The notes beneath the pieces were generated by a model. That model made no database searches, was not told the origin of the DNA, and was given only the letters and a program-made list of their open reading frames with translations. 64,000 bases of DNA, taken from contig CAJFRT010000001.1 of the NCBI GenBank assembly GCA_904419525.1, positions 90,518 to 154,517 on the forward strand, written 5' to 3'. This document shows positions 37,397-51,983 of this stretch, piece by piece (position 1 is the stretch's first letter; every line of letters starts with the position of its first letter). Made by a program: the position numbers and the translations under genes. This DNA is from Candidatus Gallimonas merdae (lineage in GTDB: Bacteria; Bacillota; Clostridia; Christensenellales; Borkfalkiaceae).

Positions 37397-37483
37397 GCCG
37401 CCGTGGTGAAACTGGCAGACACGCGGGACTTAGAATCCCGTGGCAGAAATGCCGTAGCGGTTCAAATCCGCTCGGCGGCACCA
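37397..37483 (+). tRNA. tRNA-Leu(TAG)
   Basis: GCCGCCGTGGTGAAACTGGCAGACACGCGGGACTTAGAATCCCG...GGTTCAAATCCGCTCGGCGGCA-CCA. Confidence 0.95.
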
Positions 37484-37566: not shown

Positions 37567-37595
37567 TTGACGAGCATGATAACAATGCATATAAT
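37567..37595 (+). promoter_or_regulatory. LysR gene promoter TTGACG-17-TATAAT
   Basis: ttgacg agcatgataacaatgca tataat. Confidence 0.6.
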
Positions 37596-37635
37596 CATTA
37601 TGACATCATCGTCCGGTCAGGGAGGGAACGCAGCG

Positions 37636-38529
37636 ATGGAACTGCGCGTTTTGCGATACTTTATCGAAGTGGCAAGGACACAAAATATTACGGCTGCCGC
37701 CGAACATCTGCATATCACGCAGCCAACGCTTTCCAAACAGCTTATGGAACTTGAGGAAGAACTCGGGAAACAGCTTTTTGTCCGCGGGAAGCGGAATACC
37801 ACGCTGACTGAGGACGGTATATTCCTGTACCGTCGGGCACAGGAGATCGTCGAACTTGCAGATAAGACGCGCACTGCTCTTCTTTCCACCGAAGAAACGA
37901 TCTCAGGAGATATTGCCTTTGGCTGCGGTGAAACGCCCGGCATGCGGCTTATCATTGACGTCATGAAGCAATTTAACGACCGCTACCCCGACGTCCGCTT
38001 TCATCTGTACAGCGGAAACGACGAGGATGTATCGCAAAAACTGGAATGCGGACTTGTCGATTTCGGGCTGTTCGTGGGCCGCACCGATTTGAAGCCTTTC
38101 GATTACATCAAACTTCCGGAAAGCGACGTATGGGGCCTGCTGATGCGGAAAGACGATCCGCTTGCAGCGCATAACGTCATTTCGCCGGCGGATCTGGAGC
38201 GCATTCCCCTTTCCTGTTCAAGGCAGGCTCTGCATTCCAACGAGCTGTCCGGTTGGCTCGGCCATGATTTTTCCCGTCTGGAGATCATTTCCACGCATAA
38301 CCTCGTCCACAATGCAGTCATTATGGTTGAAGCAGGCATGGGCAGCGCGCTGACAATCGCGGGACTGATCAATACGGAAGGAACTGAGCTCGTATTCCGT
38401 CCGCTGAACCCGCCGATGACGGCGGAGCTTCACTTCGCCTGGAAAAAACACCGCGCATTCTCCGGGGCGGGAAGAAAATTTCTGGAATTCATGCAAACAC
38501 AGTTCAGACAAAAAATATCCGCGCAATAA
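37636..38529 (+). CDS. LysR family transcriptional regulator
   Basis: MELRVLRYFIEVARTQNITAAAEHLHITQPTLSKQLMELEEELGKQLFVRGKR. Confidence 0.93.
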   Translation: MELRVLRYFIEVARTQNITAAAEHLHITQPTLSKQLMELEEELGKQLFVRGKRNTTLTEDGIFLYRRAQEIVELADKTRTALLSTEETISGDIAFGCGETPGMRLIIDVMKQFNDRYPDVRFHLYSGNDEDVSQKLECGLVDFGLFVGRTDLKPFDYIKLPESDVWGLLMRKDDPLAAHNVISPADLERIPLSCSRQALHSNELSGWLGHDFSRLEIISTHNLVHNAVIMVEAGMGSALTIAGLINTEGTELVFRPLNPPMTAELHFAWKKHRAFSGAGRKFLEFMQTQFRQKISAQ

Positions 38530-38544
38530 TGCGCGGATATTTTT
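38511..38544. terminator. terminator overlapping the lysR stop codon
   Basis: aaaaatatccgcgcaataatgcgcggatattttt. Confidence 0.8.
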
Positions 38545-38578
38545 TGGGGGAAGAAGGCAGAAAAATTCTGCCGTGCGA

Positions 38579-40048
38579 TCATGATCCGATTTCAATGACT
38601 GCACCATGCAGCCGATAGGTGAAGATGTTCTCATTATCCCAGGAATTGTGTCCCGTGGAAACAATGACGCGCACCTCATCGGAGTCCGGAAGGAATCCGC
38701 GCTCATCGCGCACGATCCCGGGATTATGGTTGCGTTCCCATCCCGTATCGGACGGGCCGACATACCCTGCCATCTGCCAGACATAGGAGCCGCTCTGCAG
38801 CAAGCTGCATAATTCCTCGGGACTTTCCACGTTGTCCAGATAGGCAACCATGCAGTGCGAATTGACGCGTGTGATCGTCTCGTCGGCAGGATTCTTTTCA
38901 TTGGTCACGCCGCATACATAGAAGCGTTTTCCGATGGGATCGTAGGCAAAATCGGGAATGTTGATGTTGCATTTCTGTCCCGCAGAATTGACGATCCCGT
39001 TGTGCGTGATGCGCGTTGTGAACAGGCAGGTCGGATTGTCGAGATCGGAAAAAACCCAGTGCTGGATTCCCGTCCCCTGCAATGTGGACTGATAGAACAT
39101 GAGCACGTCGCCTTCGCCGTCCAGACTGATGAGTGCAGGCATTCCCGTGCCCCAATAGATGCTTGAAGTTCCCTGCATCTCCTCGTACTTCTTCTGTTCT
39201 TCCGCTTCGTCTCCGTTGTCATACCACGGTACGATGGGATTGAGAGAAGCAACTTTCACCCATGGGCCCTCCGGCGCATTGGCTACCGCAATGCCCGTCT
39301 CGTTCTTCTGGTAATCCTCCGTCGTACAGCCCAGATATGCCATGAGATAGGTATAGTCCGTTCCCTCATAGCGGAATTTTCCGCGGATCACGGCTGGGTC
39401 ACAGGTGTGACGGGAATCCCATGTGCCCTGCGTGGGTGCGAGCACGATCTGCTGTTCCGAAAACAGCCATTTGCCGTCTGCCTGCTTTACTCCTTTGCGA
39501 TATCCGATATGATCCATGATGACGCCGTCATCTTTATTGGTACAGTACCAGACGTGCATCACCTCTTCGCCGTCGACCGTCTCAGTCAGAATGGCCGGAC
39601 AGTAATTGAAGATCTTGCTGTCTGAAACGTCCGGGCCGAACAGAACGCTTTCAAAGTCCACCGCTTGGGGTCCCGTTTCTTCCTGTTCCCGTTCAAGCAG
39701 GACAGATATGCCGTCATACTGCGTTCGCAGGCCGTCTCCCTCCTTTGTATAGGTAAAGGTATCTTCCCGGTATGTCTCTGTCACCGTCGTACCGTCAAAG
39801 GTATATGTTGAATTGCGCGTTTCTATGGAGCCGAGATATCCGATGACGACACGCAGGTTTCCGTCCTCAGAAAATGTAGCCGTATAGGTCTGGAAATCGC
39901 CGGTACAGTCAACGCCGTCCAAAGTGGCGGAAGCCAGCTGAAAAGTTCCTGTCAGGGACTGTGTGGTCTGCGAAGCACATGCTGCCACAGGCAGAACGCA
40001 GGCTGCCGCAAAACCCGCGGCAAAAACAGCTGCCATTGTCTTTTTCAT
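38579..40048 (-). CDS. secreted lipoprotein, glycosidase-like beta-propeller family, paralog 1
   Basis: Lipobox VAAC; FNYCPAILTETVDGEEVMHVWYCTNKDDGVIMDHIGYRKG, HTCDPAVIRGKFRYEGTDYTYLMAYLG, GIAVANAPEGPWVKV. Confidence 0.65.
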   Translation of the reverse strand: MKKTMAAVFAAGFAAACVLPVAACASQTTQSLTGTFQLASATLDGVDCTGDFQTYTATFSEDGNLRVVIGYLGSIETRNSTYTFDGTTVTETYREDTFTYTKEGDGLRTQYDGISVLLEREQEETGPQAVDFESVLFGPDVSDSKIFNYCPAILTETVDGEEVMHVWYCTNKDDGVIMDHIGYRKGVKQADGKWLFSEQQIVLAPTQGTWDSRHTCDPAVIRGKFRYEGTDYTYLMAYLGCTTEDYQKNETGIAVANAPEGPWVKVASLNPIVPWYDNGDEAEEQKKYEEMQGTSSIYWGTGMPALISLDGEGDVLMFYQSTLQGTGIQHWVFSDLDNPTCLFTTRITHNGIVNSAGQKCNINIPDFAYDPIGKRFYVCGVTNEKNPADETITRVNSHCMVAYLDNVESPEELCSLLQSGSYVWQMAGYVGPSDTGWERNHNPGIVRDERGFLPDSDEVRVIVSTGHNSWDNENIFTYRLHGAVIEIGS

Positions 40049-40057
40049 CTGATCACC

Positions 40058-41575
40058 TCAGCGAATGGTAAATTCTATCCCGTGGATCCGATAAGTATGC
40101 AGAGACGGCCACTGTCCGTCCATATTCCAATCGGGGAAATCGGTCGCCAGCTGTGCAGCCGTATAGAGCACCGGAACGCGGTACGGATCGATCAGGTTGC
40201 CCTTACCGTCCTTGATGATGCCCGCATTGTGATTGCGCGCATGTCCTGTTCCCGTATCGAGTGCGGCAAATCTGTTCCAGACATACGGCTCATCGCCGAA
40301 CAGCAGATCAAAATCGTCACCGACCTCGAGATAGAGCAGCGTATTGCTCCCCGTGATCCAGCTGACGCCGCCGTCCGTCGGATAAGGGAAGTCCTCCTTG
40401 ATGCAGTACAGCCTTCCGCGCGCGGGATCATAGGCAAAATCGGCATTATTGATGCAGTCGGCAGAGCCGCTCGCATTGGTCACGCCGCGTTCGCGAAGCT
40501 CCGCTTTCCGAAGCATCTCCGGAGCATCAAGATCGGAAAGATCCCACTCCTCCACGACCGTACATGTCTTTGCCGCTCCCATGGCATAAAAGAGAAGTAC
40601 TTTCCCGGCGCCGTCCGAACTGACAAGGGAAGGCTGGCCGAAGCCCCATGCCGTTTCGCTGTAATGTTCCGACTCATAAAAATTCGCAATGGGATTGAGT
40701 GATTCCACTTTCACCCAGGGACCTTCGGGAGATTTCGCAACGGCGATCCCCACCTCATTGCGGGTGTTATCGCTTGTTTCACAGCCAAGATAGGCCATGA
40801 GCCAGGAATAGTCCTCGCCACCCATGCGGAATGTCCCGCGGATCACGCTCGGGTCACACACATGGCGGCTGTCCCATTCGCCGTTTGCCCCATGTTCGAG
40901 CACAAGCTTTTTTTCGGTAAACTCCCATTTCCCGTCCGCATGGAGCGTTCCCTTGCGGTATGCAACATAGTCGGTGACATTCCCGCTGTCCTTGTTGCTG
41001 CAATACCAGACGTGCATCGTATCGTTTCCTTCCATGACCGCCGTCGGGCAATAATTATAGAAGTTTTCGCTCTTATCCTCGCCGAACAGTTCGTCAGTGA
41101 AACTGACTCCGCCGCCTTCCCCGGCGGGAAGAGCATAATTTTCATCATACGTGTAGCGCATCGTCACATCCTGCCTGTCAATTTTTCCGGAAAACGTAAG
41201 CGTTTTTCCGGAAGCATCATAAACAAACTCATATTCCCGCACGCCGATCACAAGTACGATCCCGTCGTCTGTCTTTTCGACCGTTCCCTCGCGCTCGCTC
41301 CTGCCCGTGTAATCCGTTTCATACCAGACAGCCTCTTCGTCGGACAAATGCAGGCAGTTGAACAGGTATCCGTCTGTGGTATCATATCCTTCAACCGTCT
41401 TTTGCGAAAGCACATAATATCCGTCCTGGATACCTTCCTGCTGCGTATCGCCGCCCGGCCGGTCCCCGGACGGATCCGAGCCGCCTTCACTGCACGCCGT
41501 AAACGCAGCAAGCGGAATGCTCATCGCGCAGATGCATGCAAACGCCGCCACACGCGAAACAAAACGTTTTGTCAT
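40058..41575 (-). CDS. secreted lipoprotein, glycosidase-like beta-propeller family, paralog 2
   Basis: YNYCPTAVMEGNDTMHVWYCSNKDSGNVTDYVAYRKG, HVCDPSVIRGTFRMGGEDYSWLMAYLG, GIAVAKSPEGPWVKV; close relative of 38579..40048. Confidence 0.65.
   Translation of the reverse strand: MTKRFVSRVAAFACICAMSIPLAAFTACSEGGSDPSGDRPGGDTQQEGIQDGYYVLSQKTVEGYDTTDGYLFNCLHLSDEEAVWYETDYTGRSEREGTVEKTDDGIVLVIGVREYEFVYDASGKTLTFSGKIDRQDVTMRYTYDENYALPAGEGGGVSFTDELFGEDKSENFYNYCPTAVMEGNDTMHVWYCSNKDSGNVTDYVAYRKGTLHADGKWEFTEKKLVLEHGANGEWDSRHVCDPSVIRGTFRMGGEDYSWLMAYLGCETSDNTRNEVGIAVAKSPEGPWVKVESLNPIANFYESEHYSETAWGFGQPSLVSSDGAGKVLLFYAMGAAKTCTVVEEWDLSDLDAPEMLRKAELRERGVTNASGSADCINNADFAYDPARGRLYCIKEDFPYPTDGGVSWITGSNTLLYLEVGDDFDLLFGDEPYVWNRFAALDTGTGHARNHNAGIIKDGKGNLIDPYRVPVLYTAAQLATDFPDWNMDGQWPSLHTYRIHGIEFTIR
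41559..41572. promoter_or_regulatory. LacI-type operator-like palindrome ACAAAACGTTTTGT inside codons 2-6 of paralog 2
   Basis: Perfect 14-bp palindrome sharing AAAACGTTTT with the site at 51933-51944. Confidence 0.35.
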
Positions 41576-41629
41576 AACCCCTCCTGTTGCATGCGGGCGC
41601 GGATATTCCGCGCCCGCCGCGCAGTGCCG

Positions 41630-42790
41630 TCACTGATAGTCGATCTCAAATGTCATCAGATTCTGCGTAAACAGATAGTCGTCCGTATCCGCCTCAAGCA
41701 TGCAGACATTATAGATAATCTCCGCGCCCGAGGCCCCGTCCGTGTGTCCGTAGGCGTCCGAAACGATGCACGCACCGTAGAGCCGCTCATACATGCCGTC
41801 CGGCGTATCGGTATTGTCCCATGTGCGGATCCCCGCCCAACCTTCGCCGAGATCGGTCGTATAGAGCTCTTCTTCCGCAATGGAGAGAAGCTGGATACGC
41901 CTTGCAAAGGCAGGCGCCTGCGAAGGCGTGGGCGAATAGTCTTTCACCGCATAGAACGTTCCGCCCGTCGCATCGTATGCAAAATCTGCATTGGGGAACA
42001 TCGCCACCGTGTCGCCGCCCGCGATCTCGCCGTTGTTGGGCACCATTGCCTCACCCGAAAGGACGGGCGCGTCCAGATCGGAAGCATCGATATCCACGAA
42101 CTTGGCAAAATGGCCGTACGAATCGGCAAACGTATAGAACAGGCGGATCCCGCTCTCTTTATCGTAATTGACCAGCGACGGCGCGTAATTCCCGACCGCT
42201 GTTGCCGCACTGCCCGTATTTGCTTCGTCAAATGCGATGATGGGCTGTGTGCCGACTTTCGTCCATGCCCCGTCGGGCGACTGCGCAACGGCGAGCCCGA
42301 TCGAGAACTGCGTCTCACCGGCCTGCGACGTACCGCAATAAGCCATCAGCCAGCCGTACTCCGTGTCGCCGTATTCAAACGAACCCTTGACCACGGATGC
42401 AGACCCGATGTATTCATCCCAGCTTCCGTCGCCTCCGCGAAGAGCGATCGTCTCCTCTCCGTAAGCCCAGCCCTTGTCTGCGCCCTCTTCAAAAACCGCC
42501 TTGCGCACGGCGATCACATTATCCTCTTCGCCGGAAGTCTCGTTGGTCGTATAGAAGAGCCAGCGCGTTCCGTCATCTTCAAACAGATCGGAGTTATTGA
42601 TGTAGTGACCGCGTTCGGCAACGGGAAGCCCATAGACAGTTGTCTCGCCGCCGGGATTCTCCCCGCCGGGATTTTCTCCGCCCGGGTTCTCTCCTCCCGG
42701 CCCGTCGGACGGCGCACATGCCGCCATCGTCCCGATCGCGATGCTCATGGCAAGCGCATAGAAAATTGCAAGCAGATTTTTCTTTTTCAT
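41630..42790 (-). CDS. secreted lipoprotein, glycosidase-like beta-propeller family, paralog 3 (shorter)
   Basis: MAAC lipobox, (GGENP)n linker, ASVVKGSFEYGDTEYGWLMAYCGTSQ, GLAVAQSPDGAWTKV. Confidence 0.6.
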   Translation of the reverse strand: MKKKNLLAIFYALAMSIAIGTMAACAPSDGPGGENPGGENPGGENPGGETTVYGLPVAERGHYINNSDLFEDDGTRWLFYTTNETSGEEDNVIAVRKAVFEEGADKGWAYGEETIALRGGDGSWDEYIGSASVVKGSFEYGDTEYGWLMAYCGTSQAGETQFSIGLAVAQSPDGAWTKVGTQPIIAFDEANTGSAATAVGNYAPSLVNYDKESGIRLFYTFADSYGHFAKFVDIDASDLDAPVLSGEAMVPNNGEIAGGDTVAMFPNADFAYDATGGTFYAVKDYSPTPSQAPAFARRIQLLSIAEEELYTTDLGEGWAGIRTWDNTDTPDGMYERLYGACIVSDAYGHTDGASGAEIIYNVCMLEADTDDYLFTQNLMTFEIDYQ

Positions 42791-42804
42791 ATCATTTTTC
42801 CTCC

Positions 42805-44865
42805 TCAGATGAGTCCCAGAAGCTCGGGGATCGTCTTTCCGCCTGCGTCCACAAACGAAGACGAGAACTGCGGCGTGGTAGTATAAGCGCCGATGTTGTT
42901 GATGCTGAACGACTGGTTGAGATAGCTTGCCGCGGAAACCGAAATGCCGAGATAGGCAACGACGGAACCCTCGCCCATAAACTCTTCTTTGGATACGCCG
43001 CTCGACCAGCTTGCGCGCTCAAATGCCGAGAACGGAATGCGCACCCAACCTTCAAACCCCGCGGGAAGCGTCGCCGTGGGACGGGTCATATAGATGGTTG
43101 TTTTGCCCGTATTGACATCATACAGCCAATAGCGGTTGCCCTGCAGAATATTGAATCTGGAACGCGCTCCGCTTGCGACTTTGCAGTCGATTTCAAAGTT
43201 GAAAGACACTTCGGCATCGCTGTCATTGCGCGCCCAGAAGGATACGCCCTTCCTGTTCGCCCAGTCAATATCCTCGCCGTCGGAGAGCGTGAACGCCGTG
43301 TATCCGTCGCCCGTGATGCCGGTCGCCGTGAGCTGCATTGCATCTTCGTCGTAAGAATCTTTGACCACTTTCAGGGAACCGTAGGAACCGTTGATCAGCA
43401 CATTACCGGTCGTGCCGCCTTCTTCGCTGAAAGAAGAATCCGTCTTCCCTTCGCCCTTAATATCGATCGTTGCGTCTCCCATCGTCTCGCGGACGGCATC
43501 AGCCTCAATGAAAGAGAGCGAACCACGGTTTGCTTCAAGGTCGCTTGTCACGGCGAATTTGTCGGATTTGTCGGACGAAAGGTCGAGAAGTTTGGTGAAC
43601 GTTCCGCTGCCGGCCTCGCCTGTATACAGACCGATCTCGCCGATCATGATCCGATAGTTGTAGTTATACTGTGAGTTGGTCGTAAGGACAAGCGTGTCGA
43701 TTGCCGTAAGGTCGCGGTTTGCCACCTCTCCGGACTGCCATGCCATGGAATCCATGGGAATGATCATTGCGCCCAACTTATTAGCGCCGGGCGCCGTAAC
43801 CGCCCCGTTGGTGACATTTGCCGCCTTTACACTTGCAGCGTCATTTTCCCCCATGAAATAGACGGGTTTCCCGTCCGCCTCGGCAGCTCCGACCGAATAG
43901 CGCGCTCCCTTATTTTCCAGCCCGAACGTAATGCCGGGAGCGCTGACCATCCCGTAATACTGAATGATCAGATAGCTCGCTTCGGAAAAATCGACGGTCG
44001 CCTGATCGAATTTGACCGTAAGCGTCTGCCAGTTCTGGGAAGAATCTCCATTGACGGGTCCCTGCCAGACAGCTGCCCATGTATCCGCTTCTTCACCCGT
44101 GCGGAACGGATATGCCATTTCGGGGGGCTCGGGTTCCACAATCCCGGATTCCGAAGGCATTTTCATACAGTCAGGATTGACGGAATCCACATGATATTTG
44201 CTCTTTGCACGCTCTGCCTGTGAACAATCCGCAAGTTTTCTTATGGCAGTCGCATCGGGTTCCCCTTCGTAGATTCCGACGTCACCGACGGAAATCTTCC
44301 ATCCTGCGTGATATTGCGAATTATGTGTAAAGTATACGGAATTGATCTTCGTCAGATCACCCGTTTTGCCCTCCTGCCAGCTCAGCTGGTCCATCGGAAG
44401 GAGCAACGTCCCGCTCATACCCTGTTTGAACGCAAGCTCCGTGTTGAGCATCGACATCTCCTGGATCGTGCCGTCCTCCGAAAGGAAATATGCCTTGTTT
44501 CCGTCGGTCACCGTCATGTAGCGATTTCTGCTTGCATCATGAATACCAACCGTGAATCCGGGATTTCCCTGTTCGATCCGCATCTGGATCGCGACATATT
44601 TCGCCTTCGAAAAATCCGCAGTCGCATCATCGAGAAACACCTGGATAAATTCCCAATGCAGATCCTGCGTCGTTTCGCTCACGCCCGTAAATGTCGGTGC
44701 GTACCGAAACGCCTCTTCCCTCGTCTCAAACGGATACGTCATCTGCGTGGAAGTATCCAGCGCATTTCCGTCCACCGTTACAGCGGGAAACGCCGCGCAG
44801 ATCCCGCTCAGTGCAATTCCGGCCCCGAGCATGAGAGCAAGCGCTTTTGTTCTTGTCTTTGTCAT
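42805..44865 (-). CDS. secreted multidomain protein with internally repeated carbohydrate-binding-like domains
   Basis: Signal peptide; repeats starting TYPFETREEAFRYAPTF and AYPFRTGEEADTWAAVW share ...TVDFSEA/ATADFSKAKY..IIPMDSMAWQSG/LLPMDQLSWQEG..TNSQYN/THNSQYH..IGEIGLY/VGDVGIY. Confidence 0.6.
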   Translation of the reverse strand: MTKTRTKALALMLGAGIALSGICAAFPAVTVDGNALDTSTQMTYPFETREEAFRYAPTFTGVSETTQDLHWEFIQVFLDDATADFSKAKYVAIQMRIEQGNPGFTVGIHDASRNRYMTVTDGNKAYFLSEDGTIQEMSMLNTELAFKQGMSGTLLLPMDQLSWQEGKTGDLTKINSVYFTHNSQYHAGWKISVGDVGIYEGEPDATAIRKLADCSQAERAKSKYHVDSVNPDCMKMPSESGIVEPEPPEMAYPFRTGEEADTWAAVWQGPVNGDSSQNWQTLTVKFDQATVDFSEASYLIIQYYGMVSAPGITFGLENKGARYSVGAAEADGKPVYFMGENDAASVKAANVTNGAVTAPGANKLGAMIIPMDSMAWQSGEVANRDLTAIDTLVLTTNSQYNYNYRIMIGEIGLYTGEAGSGTFTKLLDLSSDKSDKFAVTSDLEANRGSLSFIEADAVRETMGDATIDIKGEGKTDSSFSEEGGTTGNVLINGSYGSLKVVKDSYDEDAMQLTATGITGDGYTAFTLSDGEDIDWANRKGVSFWARNDSDAEVSFNFEIDCKVASGARSRFNILQGNRYWLYDVNTGKTTIYMTRPTATLPAGFEGWVRIPFSAFERASWSSGVSKEEFMGEGSVVAYLGISVSAASYLNQSFSINNIGAYTTTPQFSSSFVDAGGKTIPELLGLI

Positions 44866-44909
44866 CTTGTTACCTCCATTATCATATTCCCGGGCCATGC
44901 CCGATTTTT

Positions 44910-45806
44910 TCAACAGCCGAGACGCGATTCAAGCCAGTCATAGAAGGCTTTTTTGTCGACGTCTACGGCAATGTTTGCGGGAAAATATCCCGCCTGCGGC
45001 GAGCGCTGTACAAAAAACGCACCGCGCTCCTGTTCCAGATCGGCCCGGACATACATCGTCTCAAAGCGGCAGAGCGGCCGGAAAGCACTTGCCACGGCGA
45101 GCGGATCGTGCATGACGCTCTTTTCAAACCCGAAATGCTTGAACCAACGGTCAAACCACAGCGACAAGAGCCGGTTGGTTTCCCGTTCCGACGACGCGAC
45201 CCGTTCCAGAAGCCCGTCTTCCAGAGTACAGCGCAGCGTCACATCCAGTCCGACCGCATAGAGAGGGATCCCGCTCGAATAGACGGTCTGTGCCGCTTCC
45301 GGATCGCAAAGAATATTCCACTCAGGTTCCGTGTGCAGAAAACTTCCCCCCATCGTATAGATGGCGCCGACGGACTTCATCTCATCGGGGAAACGTTCGA
45401 TCGCCCGTGCAAGATTTGTCAGCGGACCGACCGCAAAGATCACAAGCTCTTTTTTCCACCGCTTTGCGCTCGCCGCCAGAAACTCGGCCGCGCCCGTATG
45501 TACCGGAAAGGAACGGTAATCCTCGCTCCACTGACAGACGTTTTCCCGTTCGGGCGAAGCGCCGTTCTCCCATGCAAAGGGCCGGATCTTCTCTTTGATG
45601 GGAATGCACTCCCCCGCAAAGACGGGAACATCCGTTCTGCCCGCGGCAAGCAGAAGTTTTTGCACAAGCTGTGCGCGCTGTGCCGTATTCCGATAGACAG
45701 TCGTGACGCCGAGCAGTTCCGCCTCCGGTTCGGCGGCGAGCGAAGCAAGCGCAAACGCATCGTCGATGTCGTCGCCGATATCCGTATCAAAAATGACCTT
45801 TTTCAT
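44910..45806 (-). CDS. inosine-uridine preferring nucleoside hydrolase
   Basis: KKVIFDTDIGDDIDDAFALASL Ca-binding motif, VIFAVGPLTNLARAI. Confidence 0.92.
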   Translation of the reverse strand: MKKVIFDTDIGDDIDDAFALASLAAEPEAELLGVTTVYRNTAQRAQLVQKLLLAAGRTDVPVFAGECIPIKEKIRPFAWENGASPERENVCQWSEDYRSFPVHTGAAEFLAASAKRWKKELVIFAVGPLTNLARAIERFPDEMKSVGAIYTMGGSFLHTEPEWNILCDPEAAQTVYSSGIPLYAVGLDVTLRCTLEDGLLERVASSERETNRLLSLWFDRWFKHFGFEKSVMHDPLAVASAFRPLCRFETMYVRADLEQERGAFFVQRSPQAGYFPANIAVDVDKKAFYDWLESRLGC

Positions 45807-45823
45807 ACCTCTCCCTTCCGCCG

Positions 45824-47698
45824 TCAATAGGTGCGGTACAATGAAAGATCGCCATTGGGCTGCGTTCTGTCAAGCGGATTGACGTACCCTTCCTGCCATG
45901 CCGGCCATGCGACGGTGATCCCGAGTTTTTCCTTTGTTGCCTGATACGCTTCCGAATTGAGTTCGATGACCAAAGCGAGATTGCGTTTTTCGAGCAGTTC
46001 CACCGTCTGCCGATAGATCTGTTCCGCTTCGGAACGGGAAGTCGCCTGCAGAATTTTGGTCGTCTGCTGACCGATCAGCGCATTGATCCGCGTCAGAGCA
46101 TTGTTGTAGTCCTGGAATCTGTCGTCCGTAGCGTCCACCACAAAGTGCGTTGCGTTATAGTCATAGGCATAGACCGAGAGCGGCCGCTTCAGATTGGCAC
46201 GGAATACTTCGGCCTCCGTCTTGCCGTGATTCGTCCGGGGCTGAACATTGTCGTAATACTGATAATTGAGCAGCAGATCCACCGTCATCAGGCCAAGATT
46301 CGCCGCGCCCTGCGTTCCCTTGAGTTCCAGGTAATCCTCGGTATAGGCGATTTTCGGCTCTTCCTCGTCCGTCCAGTTCCAGGTTTCTCCCTCGACCCCG
46401 AAGCAGACCAGCCGCTGACCTTCGTCGCTCGAAAGATAGTCAAACAGTTTGATGACGAGATCGGGGCGTTCGCAGTCGGTCGTGATCATGTTCATCAGAT
46501 ACCCGTAGCCGCGGATATCTGCCAGCACAGGCGCATCGCCGTCCGAATTGGTGATGTACATGCTGACATATTCATAGCCGCCGTCCTTGGCCGTGGCGAA
46601 ATGCATCTGATAGTCCTGCGGGGTGGCAAGCGTCGCAAACGCCTTTCCGCCCGCGATCACGCTTCCGACGCCGTCATACGTCTGCGTGAAGTTATCGCGT
46701 GAAATGAGCGTGTTTCCGTTCGCACGCGTTGAGCAAAGATCGTTGAGCCAGTACAGCATCTCGGCGTACTCTTCCTGCGTAAAGCGGTATTCATATTTCC
46801 CGTCGCGCGTTTCAAACGGGATCGCAAAGAACTGTGCCAGCCATTCCAGAGACGCATTGCCCTGATCCGTGAACTGCGAAAGCTGCAGCGCCGTTGTGAT
46901 CTGTCCGTTTCCGGTGCCGTAATAATTGGACATCGCCCAGGTCGCAGCCGCCTTGAAGCCCTCGGGCGTAGTGATATACCCCTGCCACTCGACACTCTTG
47001 GTCGAACCGTCGAGCGCTTCGTACGAAATCATTCCGTTTGAATCTGCCAGTGTCTCGGCATGCGCCTGCCATGCATCGAACAGGTCTTTTCTGACCATCA
47101 TTCCGCCGTTGGGCTGGAGCTGTTCGCCCTCGGGGATATCCTCATAGCTGTAATAATGATTGGGAATGCCGTATGTCTTATTGTTTCCATAGGCCCACCA
47201 GTCCATGACGTCTTCGGGCAGATGATCGTAGAGCGTGGGCGCCCATTTGTCGGCAAGCGTGTTGATATCATAGACATATCCCTGCTGCGCAAGCGATGCA
47301 AGGGTCTGCGTCTTGGAAGTGGTGGTCGAGATCACGTCCGGCAGATCGCCGCCGGCGATCATCGTGGACAGCTTCTGCCCGTCGTCCTGGACAGGCGTTG
47401 TAAAATGAATGGAAATGCCGGTGTCTTCCTTGATTTTACGAAGGACATCGTTCTCGGCAGGAATGGGCCAGCTGGACACGTCGACATACCACTCGATCGT
47501 CATATCGTTGTCCTCGGGGATATATTCCCAGCTGTTCTTGTCGGACGGTGTCTCCTCAAAATCGGGATAAGTGAGCTCCGCCATGCCGTCTTCGCCGATC
47601 GGCGGCATCGTCTCGCCGTTGCATGCCGCCATGGGAAGCACAAACGATCCCGCGCAGACGGCCGTCAGAAAGCCCGCAAATAATTTTTTTCCTTTCAT
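45824..47698 (-). CDS. extracellular solute-binding lipoprotein of a carbohydrate ABC importer
   Basis: Lipobox MAAC; LplA-like layout, IKEDTGISIHFTTPVQDDGQKLSTMIAGGDLPDVIS. Confidence 0.88.
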   Translation of the reverse strand: MKGKKLFAGFLTAVCAGSFVLPMAACNGETMPPIGEDGMAELTYPDFEETPSDKNSWEYIPEDNDMTIEWYVDVSSWPIPAENDVLRKIKEDTGISIHFTTPVQDDGQKLSTMIAGGDLPDVISTTTSKTQTLASLAQQGYVYDINTLADKWAPTLYDHLPEDVMDWWAYGNNKTYGIPNHYYSYEDIPEGEQLQPNGGMMVRKDLFDAWQAHAETLADSNGMISYEALDGSTKSVEWQGYITTPEGFKAAATWAMSNYYGTGNGQITTALQLSQFTDQGNASLEWLAQFFAIPFETRDGKYEYRFTQEEYAEMLYWLNDLCSTRANGNTLISRDNFTQTYDGVGSVIAGGKAFATLATPQDYQMHFATAKDGGYEYVSMYITNSDGDAPVLADIRGYGYLMNMITTDCERPDLVIKLFDYLSSDEGQRLVCFGVEGETWNWTDEEEPKIAYTEDYLELKGTQGAANLGLMTVDLLLNYQYYDNVQPRTNHGKTEAEVFRANLKRPLSVYAYDYNATHFVVDATDDRFQDYNNALTRINALIGQQTTKILQATSRSEAEQIYRQTVELLEKRNLALVIELNSEAYQATKEKLGITVAWPAWQEGYVNPLDRTQPNGDLSLYRTY

Positions 47699-47720
47699 AT
47701 TGTTCCTCCTGTATTTTCGT

Positions 47721-48860
47721 TTATCCTTTCAGCGAACCCACCATGATCCCCGAAGCGAAGTTCTTCCGGATCAGCGGGAAGAAGCAGAAGACGGGAATAA
47801 TGGAAAGAATGATCGCTGCAAGCGACAGTGTCTGCGAAGAGAGCCGCTCCATCATTTCGGGCGGCATGCCCTCCGTCATCGAAGATGTCTGGATCGCTTT
47901 GAGCAGGAAATATTGAAGCGACTGCAGTTCTTCGCTGTTGGTATAAATCATCGTGTCAAAGTAGCTGTTCCAGTGTCCGACCGCGACCCAGAGCACGATC
48001 GTTGCAAGAACGGGTTTGGACAGCGGCATGTAGATCTGCCACCAGATGCGGAATTCCCCTGCGCCGTCTATGAGCGCGGCATCGTGAATATCGGAACTGA
48101 TGGATTTGAATCCGCTTTGCAGCACGATCATGTTGTACACGGAATAGAGACCCGGTATGATGTACACCCAGAACGTGTCGTAAAGACCGATGCTCTTGAT
48201 GATGAGGAAATACGGGACGAGTCCGCCCGAAAAAAACATCGTAAAGATGTTGATCCAGTAAAAGACACGCCGGAATTTCAGATTGGGCCGGCTCATCGCA
48301 TAGGCAACAATGGCGGTGTAGATGAGCGCCGTCGCCGTTCCGAGCAGCGTGCGGGCGATCGTGATCCCGTAACTCATCCAAAAATCCCCGTCCTGCAAAA
48401 CGACCGCATAGTTTTCAAACGTAAACACGCGGGGAAGAAACCACACGCCGCCGATCGAATAGTCGGCGCCCTGATTGAAACTGCCCGCCAGGACATAGAT
48501 GATCGGATAGATGCAGAGAACGCAGAAAATCCCGATCACAACGGCCAGAACGACATCGAATGTCCGGATGCGGCGGTTGAGTTTGCTCTTCCGGAAACGG
48601 GAAAGCCATATCTTCTGCCGCTTTGCGTGCACATAGAGAAAAAATCCGACAGCCGCCGCCGCAACGGGAAGCAGTCCGCAGAATATGTAGAACAGAACGT
48701 CCAGCGTGCGATAGGTCTGCTCTGTCCCTCCGTCGATCTGCACGTTGGCGAGATAAGCAAATACGAGCACCCCGAGCACGATCGCTCCGACAAAGAGAAA
48801 GATGGCTTTTTTGAAACGGAAATAGGCATCGCTGTACAGATCGGTCAATTTTTCCATCAT
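47721..48860 (-). CDS. carbohydrate ABC permease (LplC/YtcP-like)
   Basis: DAALIDGAGEFRIWWQIYMPLSKPVLATIVLW EAA loop. Confidence 0.9.
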   Translation of the reverse strand: MMEKLTDLYSDAYFRFKKAIFLFVGAIVLGVLVFAYLANVQIDGGTEQTYRTLDVLFYIFCGLLPVAAAAVGFFLYVHAKRQKIWLSRFRKSKLNRRIRTFDVVLAVVIGIFCVLCIYPIIYVLAGSFNQGADYSIGGVWFLPRVFTFENYAVVLQDGDFWMSYGITIARTLLGTATALIYTAIVAYAMSRPNLKFRRVFYWINIFTMFFSGGLVPYFLIIKSIGLYDTFWVYIIPGLYSVYNMIVLQSGFKSISSDIHDAALIDGAGEFRIWWQIYMPLSKPVLATIVLWVAVGHWNSYFDTMIYTNSEELQSLQYFLLKAIQTSSMTEGMPPEMMERLSSQTLSLAAIILSIIPVFCFFPLIRKNFASGIMVGSLKG

Positions 48861-48861
48861 G

Positions 48862-49854
48862 TCAGTAGATCCCCTTTCCGCTGATTTTTTTGCAGATCCA
48901 ATTCCCCGATACGAGCAGGAAAAGTGCAACGATCGATTTGATGAGCCCGATCGCCGTCGCGTAGCTGTAACGGAAATCGGGAATGCCGTACTTATAGATG
49001 TACGTGTCGAGAACTTCACTGCGCTCGATATTGCTCGTGTTCTGGAAGACGAGCAGATGCTCGATCCCGTTGTTCAGAAGCCCGCTCACCGAAAGAATGA
49101 AAAACAGCGCGATGGTCGGCGCGATCGACGGGATCGTGATATAGACGATCTTATGGAACCGGTTCGCTCCGTCCATTTTTGCCGCCTCATAGAGCTCCTG
49201 CGGGATCGCCGCGATCGCAGCGACATAGATGACGGAACCCCAGCCCATCCCTTTCAGAAGAGATGTTCCGATGATGATCCACCAGAAATAATCGGGATCG
49301 CCGAGGATATCCACTTTGTATTCGGTGAGCCCCCACTGCTGCAGGAGCGCAGGCAGCCCCGTATCCAGCGCAAACAGACTCAGGAAAATGCCGCCGTATA
49401 CCGCCCACGATATGAAATGCGGGAAAAAGGTGACCGTCTGCACGAATTTTTTATAGTGATCGCTCAGCAGTTCCGCCGTAAAGACCGCAAATAAAATGGG
49501 AAGCGGGAAATTGATGAGCAGCTGCAGAAGATTGAGCCCCAGCGTATTCAGAATGATATTCCAGAAATCGGGATCTTCAAAAAATGCAACAAAGTTATCC
49601 AGGCCGCACCAGTCTGCAACTGAGATCGCCTGTGAGATGTTCAGCCAACCGTCCCCGTCCTTGAATGCAAGCACCAGCCCGTACAACGGCGCATAGGCAA
49701 ACACTGCCAGAAAGATAACGCTCAGGGACGCCATGCCCACAAGCACCCAATCATTTCCCGTCCAGGGTTTGCGTTTTTTCCGTTCGGACTTTTCTTCCGC
49801 ATTGCCGAACGTCTGTGTTTCGCTTTCTGCACGCGTCAAGATCTCATCGGTCAT
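48862..49854 (-). CDS. carbohydrate ABC permease (LplB-like)
   Basis: ELYEAAKMDGANRFHKIVYITIPSIAPTIALFFILSVSG EAA loop. Confidence 0.9.
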   Translation of the reverse strand: MTDEILTRAESETQTFGNAEEKSERKKRKPWTGNDWVLVGMASLSVIFLAVFAYAPLYGLVLAFKDGDGWLNISQAISVADWCGLDNFVAFFEDPDFWNIILNTLGLNLLQLLINFPLPILFAVFTAELLSDHYKKFVQTVTFFPHFISWAVYGGIFLSLFALDTGLPALLQQWGLTEYKVDILGDPDYFWWIIIGTSLLKGMGWGSVIYVAAIAAIPQELYEAAKMDGANRFHKIVYITIPSIAPTIALFFILSVSGLLNNGIEHLLVFQNTSNIERSEVLDTYIYKYGIPDFRYSYATAIGLIKSIVALFLLVSGNWICKKISGKGIY

Positions 49855-49885
49855 GCCGTTCCCTCCTCGGATAAGTTTTTTATTT

Positions 49886-49932
49886 CAGGTAATTCCCGCT
49901 TGGAATTACCTGACGCGAGGGGCGCCCCTCGC
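49886..49932. terminator. two consecutive perfect hairpins between the lacI-like gene and the permease genes
   Basis: caggtaattcc-cgctt-ggaattacctg and gcgaggggcgcccctcgc. Confidence 0.7.
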
Positions 49933-49948
49933 AAAATTTTTGTTTTTT

Positions 49949-50983
49949 TCAGTTTTCTGAAATATCCGCCACACTGGAACGGCGCACCAGCTGCGCAGGA
50001 CAGCAGGCAGGCGCTTCCATATCTTCGTCCTCAATGAGCGCAAGAATGGCGCGGCAGACCTCTTTGGCGATCGTCTCCACCGGCTGACGCATTGTGGAAA
50101 GCGGGACTTCCAGCACGGAAGAATAGATATTGTCATCAAATCCCATCACGGAAACATCGTCCGGGATCCGCTTCCCTGCGCGCTTTGCACTCTCATAGAC
50201 GCCGTATGCCTGCATATCGCTGAATGCGAAAACAGCCGTAACGCCTTTCCCGAGCAGCATTGCCCCGCCGTTCACACCTGTTGCAAAATCATATTTGCCC
50301 TCATAGACGCAGTCGTCGGGCAGGCTCAGTCCCCGCTCCGACAGTGCCCGGCGCACACCTTTCAGACGATTCCGGCTGCTGTTGAGCGTCAGCGGCCCGG
50401 CGATCACGCCGATTCTTTCATGGCCGTTTTCAAGCAGATACTGCGTTGCCGCATAGCTGCTCGCTTCGTTGTCCACCGCGACCCGCGTCCCCCCGTCTGC
50501 ATAATAGCGGTCAAAAAACAAATAGGGAATGCGCAGTCCCGTCAGAAGACGCTTCATTTTTTCTGCATTTTCCGCAGTGAACGCTTCGGCGCTCGGCGTC
50601 AGAATGAGTCCGTCAACATTTCTTCCGGCAAGCAGGCGTATGTAGCGATAGTCGTTTTCGGCGCGCTCTTCGCTGTTGCACAGAATGATGTCATACCCGT
50701 AACGCGCGATCTCCACCTGAATATGGCGCACTGCTTCGGAAAAGAATGCATTGGAAATATCCGGAACAACGACGCCGACAATGTTCGTTTTACGGGTGAC
50801 AAGAGCCCGCGCAAGGATATCCGTATTATAGTCCAGTTCGGCTGCCGCTGCCCGCACCCGCTCGCAGGTGCGCTCGGGAAGCGCGGCGTCCTTTCCGTTG
50901 AGCACCATGGACACCGTGGTCGGCGAGACCCCTGCACGGAGTGCGACATCCTTTATGGTCGCTTTTTTTCTTGCTTCTTTCAT
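49949..50983 (-). CDS. LacI family transcriptional regulator
   Basis: KKATIKDVALRAGVSPTTVSMVLNGKDAALPERTCERV; periplasmic-binding-like C-terminus. Confidence 0.95.
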   Translation of the reverse strand: MKEARKKATIKDVALRAGVSPTTVSMVLNGKDAALPERTCERVRAAAAELDYNTDILARALVTRKTNIVGVVVPDISNAFFSEAVRHIQVEIARYGYDIILCNSEERAENDYRYIRLLAGRNVDGLILTPSAEAFTAENAEKMKRLLTGLRIPYLFFDRYYADGGTRVAVDNEASSYAATQYLLENGHERIGVIAGPLTLNSSRNRLKGVRRALSERGLSLPDDCVYEGKYDFATGVNGGAMLLGKGVTAVFAFSDMQAYGVYESAKRAGKRIPDDVSVMGFDDNIYSSVLEVPLSTMRQPVETIAKEVCRAILALIEDEDMEAPACCPAQLVRRSSVADISEN

Positions 50984-51900
50984 ACAAAAACGCCCTTTTC
51001 TTTTGCATATTTCTCCGCCTCAGCCCGCACCGGAATGGCGCATTGCGCCCCCCGCCGGGTGACAGTGAGCGCGGAAGCCGTGCTGGCAAAGCGCATTGCC
51101 GTCTCGATGTCCGCCCCCTCGGAAAGGCGGGTCACAAAGGCGCCCACATAGGTATCGCCTGCCGCCGTCGTGTCGACGGCCTTTGCCGGAACCGCGTCCG
51201 TGCGGCGGAATACCCCTTCGCTCACGCTTGCGGACCCGTCTGTTCCAAGCGTGATGAGCACATTCCTGACGCCCAGTTTTCCGAGTTTTTCGGCACAGCG
51301 GCGGACGCTTTCCTCGTCCGAAGGGTAGATCCCCGTATAAAATTCCGCCTCCGTCTGATTGGGCACAAACCAGTCGCAGTCGGCATACAGCTCTTCCGGA
51401 AGCTGTGCCGCGGGTGCGGGATTGAGCACCGTGATCATGCCGCGTTTTTTTGCCTCCTTCAAAGCATATGCAACCGTGGGAAGCCCGATCTCCAGCTGCA
51501 CCAGAAGATAATCCCCGGCTTGGGCATCAGCAAACGCACGGTCAACCAATGCATTGTCCGTCCGCCCGTTGGAACCCGCATCGAGAATGATGCGGTTATC
51601 TCCGTCCGCAACAACGATCACGGCAATGCCGCTTGAAATATCCGGTTCCGTCCGCACATAGTCGGCATGAACGCCGTATCCTTTCAGCGCATCTGTCAGT
51701 TCGCCGCCGAATTCCCGTCCGACACAGCCGACCATATAGGATTCACCCCCGAGCTTTGCCACGGCCACGGCCTGATTGGCGCCTTTCCCCCCGGGATTGG
51801 TCATAAATCCTTCACCGGAGATCGTTTCGCCTCCCTCCGGGACCCGCGGCGCGCGGATTACAAGATCCATATTCAGACTTCCGACGATATAAATGCGCAT
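50980..51900 (-). CDS. rbsK: ribokinase (PfkB family)
   Basis: GSLNMDLVIRAPRVPEGGETI, NPGGKGANQAVAVAKLGG, DTTAAGDTYVGAFV. Confidence 0.92.
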   Translation of the reverse strand: MRIYIVGSLNMDLVIRAPRVPEGGETISGEGFMTNPGGKGANQAVAVAKLGGESYMVGCVGREFGGELTDALKGYGVHADYVRTEPDISSGIAVIVVADGDNRIILDAGSNGRTDNALVDRAFADAQAGDYLLVQLEIGLPTVAYALKEAKKRGMITVLNPAPAAQLPEELYADCDWFVPNQTEAEFYTGIYPSDEESVRRCAEKLGKLGVRNVLITLGTDGSASVSEGVFRRTDAVPAKAVDTTAAGDTYVGAFVTRLSEGADIETAMRFASTASALTVTRRGAQCAIPVRAEAEKYAKEKGVFV

Positions 51901-51919
51901 TTTTCTCCTCCAAATGAAG

Positions 51920-51944
51920 TAAATCGATTTAATAAAACGTTTTA
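51920..51944. promoter_or_regulatory. two tandem 12-bp LacI-type operators, TAAATCGATTTA and TAAAACGTTTTA
   Basis: Both perfect palindromes with central CG, between the -10 and the rbsK start. Confidence 0.75.
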
Positions 51945-51954
51945 GTACGTTGCT

Positions 51955-51983
51955 ATCATAACATACTCTCAGGTGCTTGTCAA
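51955..51983 (-). promoter_or_regulatory. rbsK-lacI promoter TTGACA-17-TATGAT
   Basis: Minus strand TTGACA AGCACCTGAGAGTATGT TATGAT. Confidence 0.75.

Follow-up and report, generated by a model that had tools for sequence, protein, structure and literature searches.

The rus locus of Bacteroides thetaiotaomicron, reportedly described by Glowacki et al. 2020, is said to be a Gram-negative system of the SusCD type in which an importer is accompanied by ribokinases, by a nucleoside hydrolase and by an exported protein, a putative glycoside hydrolase (GH) of unassigned family. The locus studied here differs from rus in having a CUT1 ABC importer under predicted LacI regulation, three propeller lipoproteins and a CBM11-like protein; no SusC/SusD pair was found in the operon, which encodes the ABC importer instead. 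It has a LacI regulator, two permeases, a binding lipoprotein and the lack of an operon-encoded ATPase in common with the CUT1 loci of Firmicutes (LplABC-type), whereas its coupling to a ribokinase, a nucleoside-hydrolase (IUNH) homologue and an apparently new propeller family sets it apart from them. We consider it somewhat probable that this is a LacI-controlled Gram-positive operon for the utilisation of a ribofuranose-containing oligo- or polysaccharide, working by the mechanism proposed below.

The window (the whole 64,000-nucleotide stretch analysed, G000:C1:90518-154517, from the 2.08-Mb genome of the gut Clostridia bacterium Candidatus Gallimonas merdae) carries ten genes, all on the minus strand, within 38579-51983. 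In order they encode RbsK, LacI, two CUT1 permeases, the binding lipoprotein, the IUNH homologue, the secreted protein REP and the propellers P3, P2 and P1 (Table 1), which is the order, strand and number given by the original prediction, whose coordinates also match closely the unit running from promoter to terminator (51983 to about 38512). Since the successive intergenic gaps are only -4, 94, 0, 22, -4, -4, 14, 54 and 9 bp, the ten genes fit one operon. This apparent single operon is well bounded by a predicted strong promoter, a similar version of which (TTGACA-N17-TATAAT) lies 5' of rbsK in the relative G650, and by a putative terminator after P1 comprising a GC-rich hairpin and a T-run. 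The closest named relative locus is that of Candidatus Gallimonas gallistercoris (L018), with a P1 that is 88% identical. A GC-rich hairpin, GGCGGGCGCGGAATATCCGCGCCCGC, lies between P3 and P2 (41576-41629), similar ones occupy the same place in L082, L083 and L014, and it is possible that the element serves in mRNA processing or as a stabiliser. A gene for a LysR-type regulator (37567-38529) is convergent with the operon, and a strong promoter-like site marks where it starts; it is adjoined by a tRNA-Leu (37397-37483).

Table 1. Features of the operon, with window coordinates and the evidence for each.
Feature	Coordinates	Strand	Evidence
Promoter (predicted), TTGACA-N17-TATGAT	51955..51983	-	scan, 11/12 match
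Putative LacI-type operators, palindromes TAAATCGATTTA and TAAAACGTTTTA	51920..51944		adjacent, perfect, 12-bp, central CG
RbsK, ribokinase	50980..51900	-	TIGR02152, 316.6 bits (cut-off 299.65)
LacI-family repressor, RbsR-like	49949..50983	-	PF00356 and Peripla_BP_3
Intercistronic hairpin GCGAGGGGCGCCCCTCGC, between lacI and permB	49915..49932		
ABC permease, CUT1-type (LplB-like)	48862..49854	-	PF00528, 2e-17
ABC permease PermC, CUT1-type (LplC-like), corrected start	47721..48860	-	PF00528, 1e-13
Solute-binding lipoprotein	45824..47698	-	lipobox MAAC
IUNH homologue, cytoplasmic	44910..45827	-	PF01156, 2e-54
REP, secreted, three beta-sandwich domains, CBM11-like	42805..44913	-	CBM_11, sub-threshold, E 0.0026
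P3, propeller lipoprotein, no CDP/RNHN signature	41630..42790	-	alignment, residue table; GH43, sub-threshold, E 0.0056
P2, propeller lipoprotein, N-terminal beta-barrel, CDP/RNHN class	40058..41575	-	model, Foldseek, residues
P1, propeller lipoprotein, CDP/RNHN class	38579..40048	-	39% identical to P2; phmmer to GH117 3p2n, E 1.4e-4
Intrinsic terminator (putative), AAAAATATCCGCGC-ATTATT-GCGCGGATATTTTTT	about 38512..38549	-	read directly from sequence

The regulator contains the HTH and sugar-binding domains of the LacI family, and its nearest NCBIfam model is RbsR (NF047341, 240 bits, 4e-71), under the cut-off. The family's palindromic operator with a central CG has a putative counterpart in the twin palindromes just downstream of the promoter. 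Their common pattern, TAAAWCGWTTTA, has an expectation of 0.02 occurrences in the window and only two matches in the whole genome, both at 51920-51944. Furthermore, TAAAACGTTTTA is kept 5' of rbsK in G650 and TAAATCGATTTA in the same position in a second relative (G514), and TAAAACGTTTTA is also contained in the Bacilli locus L028. From this distribution we infer that control is probably local, exerted by the operon's own LacI protein alone. A further palindrome at the start of P2, CAAAACGTTTTG (41560-41571), shares AAAACGTTTT with the operator; it was discarded as a candidate site, as it is not conserved in relatives.

RbsK is the only ribokinase in the genome above the TIGR02152 equivalog cut-off. 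Of the importer subunits, the LplB-like permease has UgpA/GlcT as its nearest models, under cut-off, and the open reading frame listed for PermC (to 49019) begins too early, the likely start being at 48860 (MMEKLTD). The solute-binding lipoprotein matched family-1 extracellular solute-binding proteins in phmmer (5g5y/5gub, E 5e-6 to 9e-6). No ATPase gene was found in the operon, and one MalK-type ATPase is encoded elsewhere in the genome.

The IUNH homologue scores 185.6 bits against PF01156 (gathering cut-off 34.2) and at most 109 bits against the RihA, RihB, RihC and UriH equivalogs, which have cut-offs of 382-459. Inspection of its sequence revealed no signal peptide. The identities originally predicted for the kinase, regulator, importer and hydrolase genes are thus borne out by TIGR02152, PF00356 with Peripla_BP_3, PF00528 and PF01156. 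The catalytic Asp cluster, the Glu-x-Asn and the His-Asp are common to this protein, CfIUNH (1mas) and RihA/B/C, with D14, D16, D22, D23, E169, N171, H240 and D241 all kept. In contrast to CfIUNH, it has a two-residue insertion in the motif DTDIGDDIDDA and a shortened GNxT loop, the loop that in CfIUNH presumably carries Asn160. Loss of the Asn160 loop was considered as a mark of propeller-linked IUNHs and dropped because most other IUNHs of these genomes also lack it. We propose that the homologue may act as an intracellular ribosidase. Many IUNH genes in these genomes adjoin CUT1 importers without propellers or ribokinase (L107-L126, L039 and L040), so an IUNH alone is no proof of ribose; they sit beside the CUT1 permeases as if the enzyme processed oligosaccharides in general.

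P1, P2 and P3 all carry lipobox signals. The original prediction treated the three as related, which they are; they do not, however, form a single class, since P3 is diverged (26% identical to P1) from the P1/P2 pair (39%). The model of P2 (pLDDT 89.9, pTM 0.87) comprises an N-terminal beta-barrel, an extra domain predicted from it for P1 as well, and a five-bladed propeller. A structure search with this model gave GH43, GH117 and GH62 as the best Foldseek matches (E 4e-8 to 1e-6, 10-15% identity, target TM about 0.5-0.67; for GH117, E about 1e-7 and TM about 0.5), and many members of these families act on furanosides. A profile of 39 propeller members also matched GH117 3p2n over part of the chain (E 1.1e-11). 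Against the GH43 (PF04616) cut-off of 32.2 bits, P2 and P3 reached 14.2 and 16.5 and P1 gave no match, and Pfam, NCBIfam and PHROGs searches returned no family above cut-off for any of P1-P3 or REP.

The residues point away from GH117 proper. C240, D241, H449 and N450 are invariant in 48 of 80 propellers, nearly all of which also have W310 and R496, the latter being near-invariant in this CDP/RNHN class; the remaining 32, including P3 and most type II proteins (see below), lack the signature. The case for D379 as an invariant catalytic acid is weakened by the Q, N or E that some members have at this position. We take the GH117 triad to be Asp90/Asp245/His302, positions deduced from the H302E entry 4ak6. 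In direct register, the base Asp90 aligns with Cys176, the base position being Cys or Ala in the propellers, and in a blade-shifted register Asp245 aligns with D241 only. Membership of GH117 was therefore rejected on catalytic residues, the triad being absent in direct register. P2 probably shares its predicted fold class with the five-bladed propellers of GH117 (3,6-anhydro-alpha-L-galactosidase), GH43 and GH62, whereas the propeller family has different invariant residues from GH117 at the low identity given above. Given this fold and the absence of any Pfam or NCBIfam assignment, we regard the propellers as a candidate hydrolase family outside the named families; to our knowledge no enzyme activity has been described for any member.

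REP scored 18.3 bits against CBM11 (PF03425), where the cut-off is 27. Its model has a pLDDT of 80 and a pTM of 0.39, which is too low to fix the domain arrangement, and one domain matches 1v0a in Foldseek (probability 1.00, E 5.5e-4). As the PF03425 cut-off is missed despite this fold match, we call REP CBM11-like only. The original view that nothing recognisable explains the exported proteins can be refined at the level of structure, where a five-bladed fold of furanoside-hydrolase type is predicted for the propellers and three beta-sandwich domains, one of them nearest CBM11, for REP.

Among 301 family-level genomes, 21 encode propellers, at 27 loci. A synteny comparison, as proposed with the original prediction, found an IUNH gene within 10 kb at 26 of these, the exception ending at a contig edge. 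The chance rate is about 3% per random 20-kb stretch, given a total of 56 IUNH genes across about 40 Mb; the 27 loci are related by descent, so that 26/27 is no independent test. The stronger point is that the linkage recurs across phyla, in Bacilli (L019, L022, L028 and L030), Oscillospiraceae (L024) and three Actinobacteria (L031, L032 and L035). Single-propeller loci exist in Actinobacteria, and five CDP/RNHN loci, some on short contigs, have no IUNH nearby (L023, L025, L026, L027 and L029). A dockerin protein is encoded near the propeller of L027. RbsK is present in nine loci (the window, L024, L028, L030, L082, L083, L085, L087 and L088), and the kinase adjoining the propellers is ribokinase-like in several lineages. 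The predicted release and phosphorylation of ribose inside the cell is supported by the sole above-cut-off ribokinase and by the recurring propeller-IUNH linkage. The family is rare and patchy: phylum-wide sampling detected it in no genome other than this one, and class-wide sampling added only weak outliers. Around a match on a Methylobacterium plasmid (25% identity), the annotation shows neither an IUNH gene nor sugar genes.

The loci fall into two types. Type I resembles the window, with RbsK and LacI; type II has AraC, BNR_2 propellers, an FGGY kinase and an HpcH aldolase, in some cases an esterase-like protein, and no RbsK inside the cluster. The genome studied here also has a second propeller-IUNH importer cluster (L038, G000:C25:1-16000). 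It is of type II, encodes an esterase-like protein besides its BNR_2 propellers, and likely serves a different sugar.

A clue to the substrate comes from a sister locus of the same genus, L088. There, one strand carries RbsK, a class II aldolase, RhaA (rhamnose isomerase), RhaB (rhamnulokinase), a GH78-like (rhamnosidase-like) protein without signal peptide and an IUNH, followed by two propellers, REP, the binding protein, two permeases and LacI. The Pfam match of the GH78-like protein was scored on its homologue in L087, to which the L088 gene was joined by clustering; L087 resembles L088 but shows only the GH78-like gene. The L088 IUNH is a divergent subtype in which Trp replaces His240, and its role may differ. 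The presence of a cytoplasmic rhamnosidase-like gene with rhamnose isomerase, rhamnulokinase and aldolase makes a ribose-containing oligosaccharide a likelier import than a nucleoside, and suggests that the cell can take up an oligosaccharide containing both rhamnose and ribose. Bacterial O-antigens are known to include beta-D-ribofuranose (PMC5462993). In the literature searched, no paper combined 'ribofuranosidase' with 'glycoside hydrolase'.

Operon structure, gene families, predicted folds and operators, and conserved linkage can be read from the sequence; catalysis by P1 and P2, an O-ribosidase role for the IUNH homologue and the substrate itself are what we would add to them. REP would hold the glycan at the cell surface, where P1 and P2 would cut it as hydrolases of the unnamed five-bladed family, while P3, a diverged paralogue, may bind it or act on another linkage. 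The CUT1 importer, powered by an ATPase encoded elsewhere, would take in the ribosyl-oligosaccharide, from which the cytoplasmic IUNH homologue would free ribose for phosphorylation by RbsK, and an inducer would lift LacI off the twin operators. More tentatively, and with somewhat less than even expectation, P1 and P2 may found a new GH family that cuts O-linked ribofuranosides of microbial surface glycans, with the IUNHs linked to them forming a clade recruited as cytoplasmic O-ribosidases for imported oligosaccharides, not nucleosides; judged by the literature available here, this would be a Gram-positive ribosyl-glycan system of an undescribed kind.

The original prediction left the substrate between a ribosyl oligosaccharide and a nucleoside conjugate, and our data favour the glycan. 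Were the operon to scavenge nucleosides or nucleotide conjugates, the propellers and REP would capture or trim these outside the cell, and the nucleosides brought in by the importer would be processed by an ordinary nucleoside hydrolase and a ribokinase, which agrees with the identity of RbsK and with the Ca/ribose core residues that the IUNH homologue keeps from true nucleoside hydrolases. We think this unlikely, because the importer, with its family-1 binding protein, is of the CUT1 type for oligosaccharides, the operon contains no phosphatase, nuclease or base-salvage gene, the CBM-like and GH-like character of the exported proteins suggests glycans, and the rhamnose genes of L088 would be left unexplained. 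Similarly improbable is a glycan operon with a main sugar other than ribose, in which the IUNH homologue would hydrolyse a different furanoside or pentoside and the sugar set free would be phosphorylated by the RbsK-like kinase. The IUNH genes beside many CUT1 importers without RbsK are in keeping with such a scheme, as is the pairing of propeller and IUNH with FGGY kinase and aldolase in type II clusters, but RbsK passes the ribokinase equivalog cut-off as the sole such gene in the genome, and kinases next to propellers are ribokinase-like in several lineages.

It is rather doubtful, if less so than these two schemes, that the propellers are non-catalytic surface proteins that bind a glycan cut by enzymes of other organisms or by products of genes elsewhere. 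A row of three paralogous lipoproteins could consist of binding proteins, and the GH43/GH117 catalytic triad is not conserved in direct register; against this, D241, H449 and N450, invariant across phyla (single-propeller loci of Actinobacteria included) together with the near-invariant R496, resemble an active site. The substrate we prefer does not depend on the propellers being catalytic, so the likelihoods assigned to the different readings partly overlap.

The propeller family, tied to IUNH homologues in Clostridia, Bacilli and Actinobacteria, provides concrete enzyme candidates. Furthermore, many genes of gut Clostridia that carry the annotation 'nucleoside hydrolase' adjoin CUT1 importers, which suggests that their products may act on imported oligosaccharides and not on nucleosides. 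In the locus of Paracholeplasma vituli (L020:2970-3864) the IUNH gene is split over two open reading frames, and the remaining cluster is intact.
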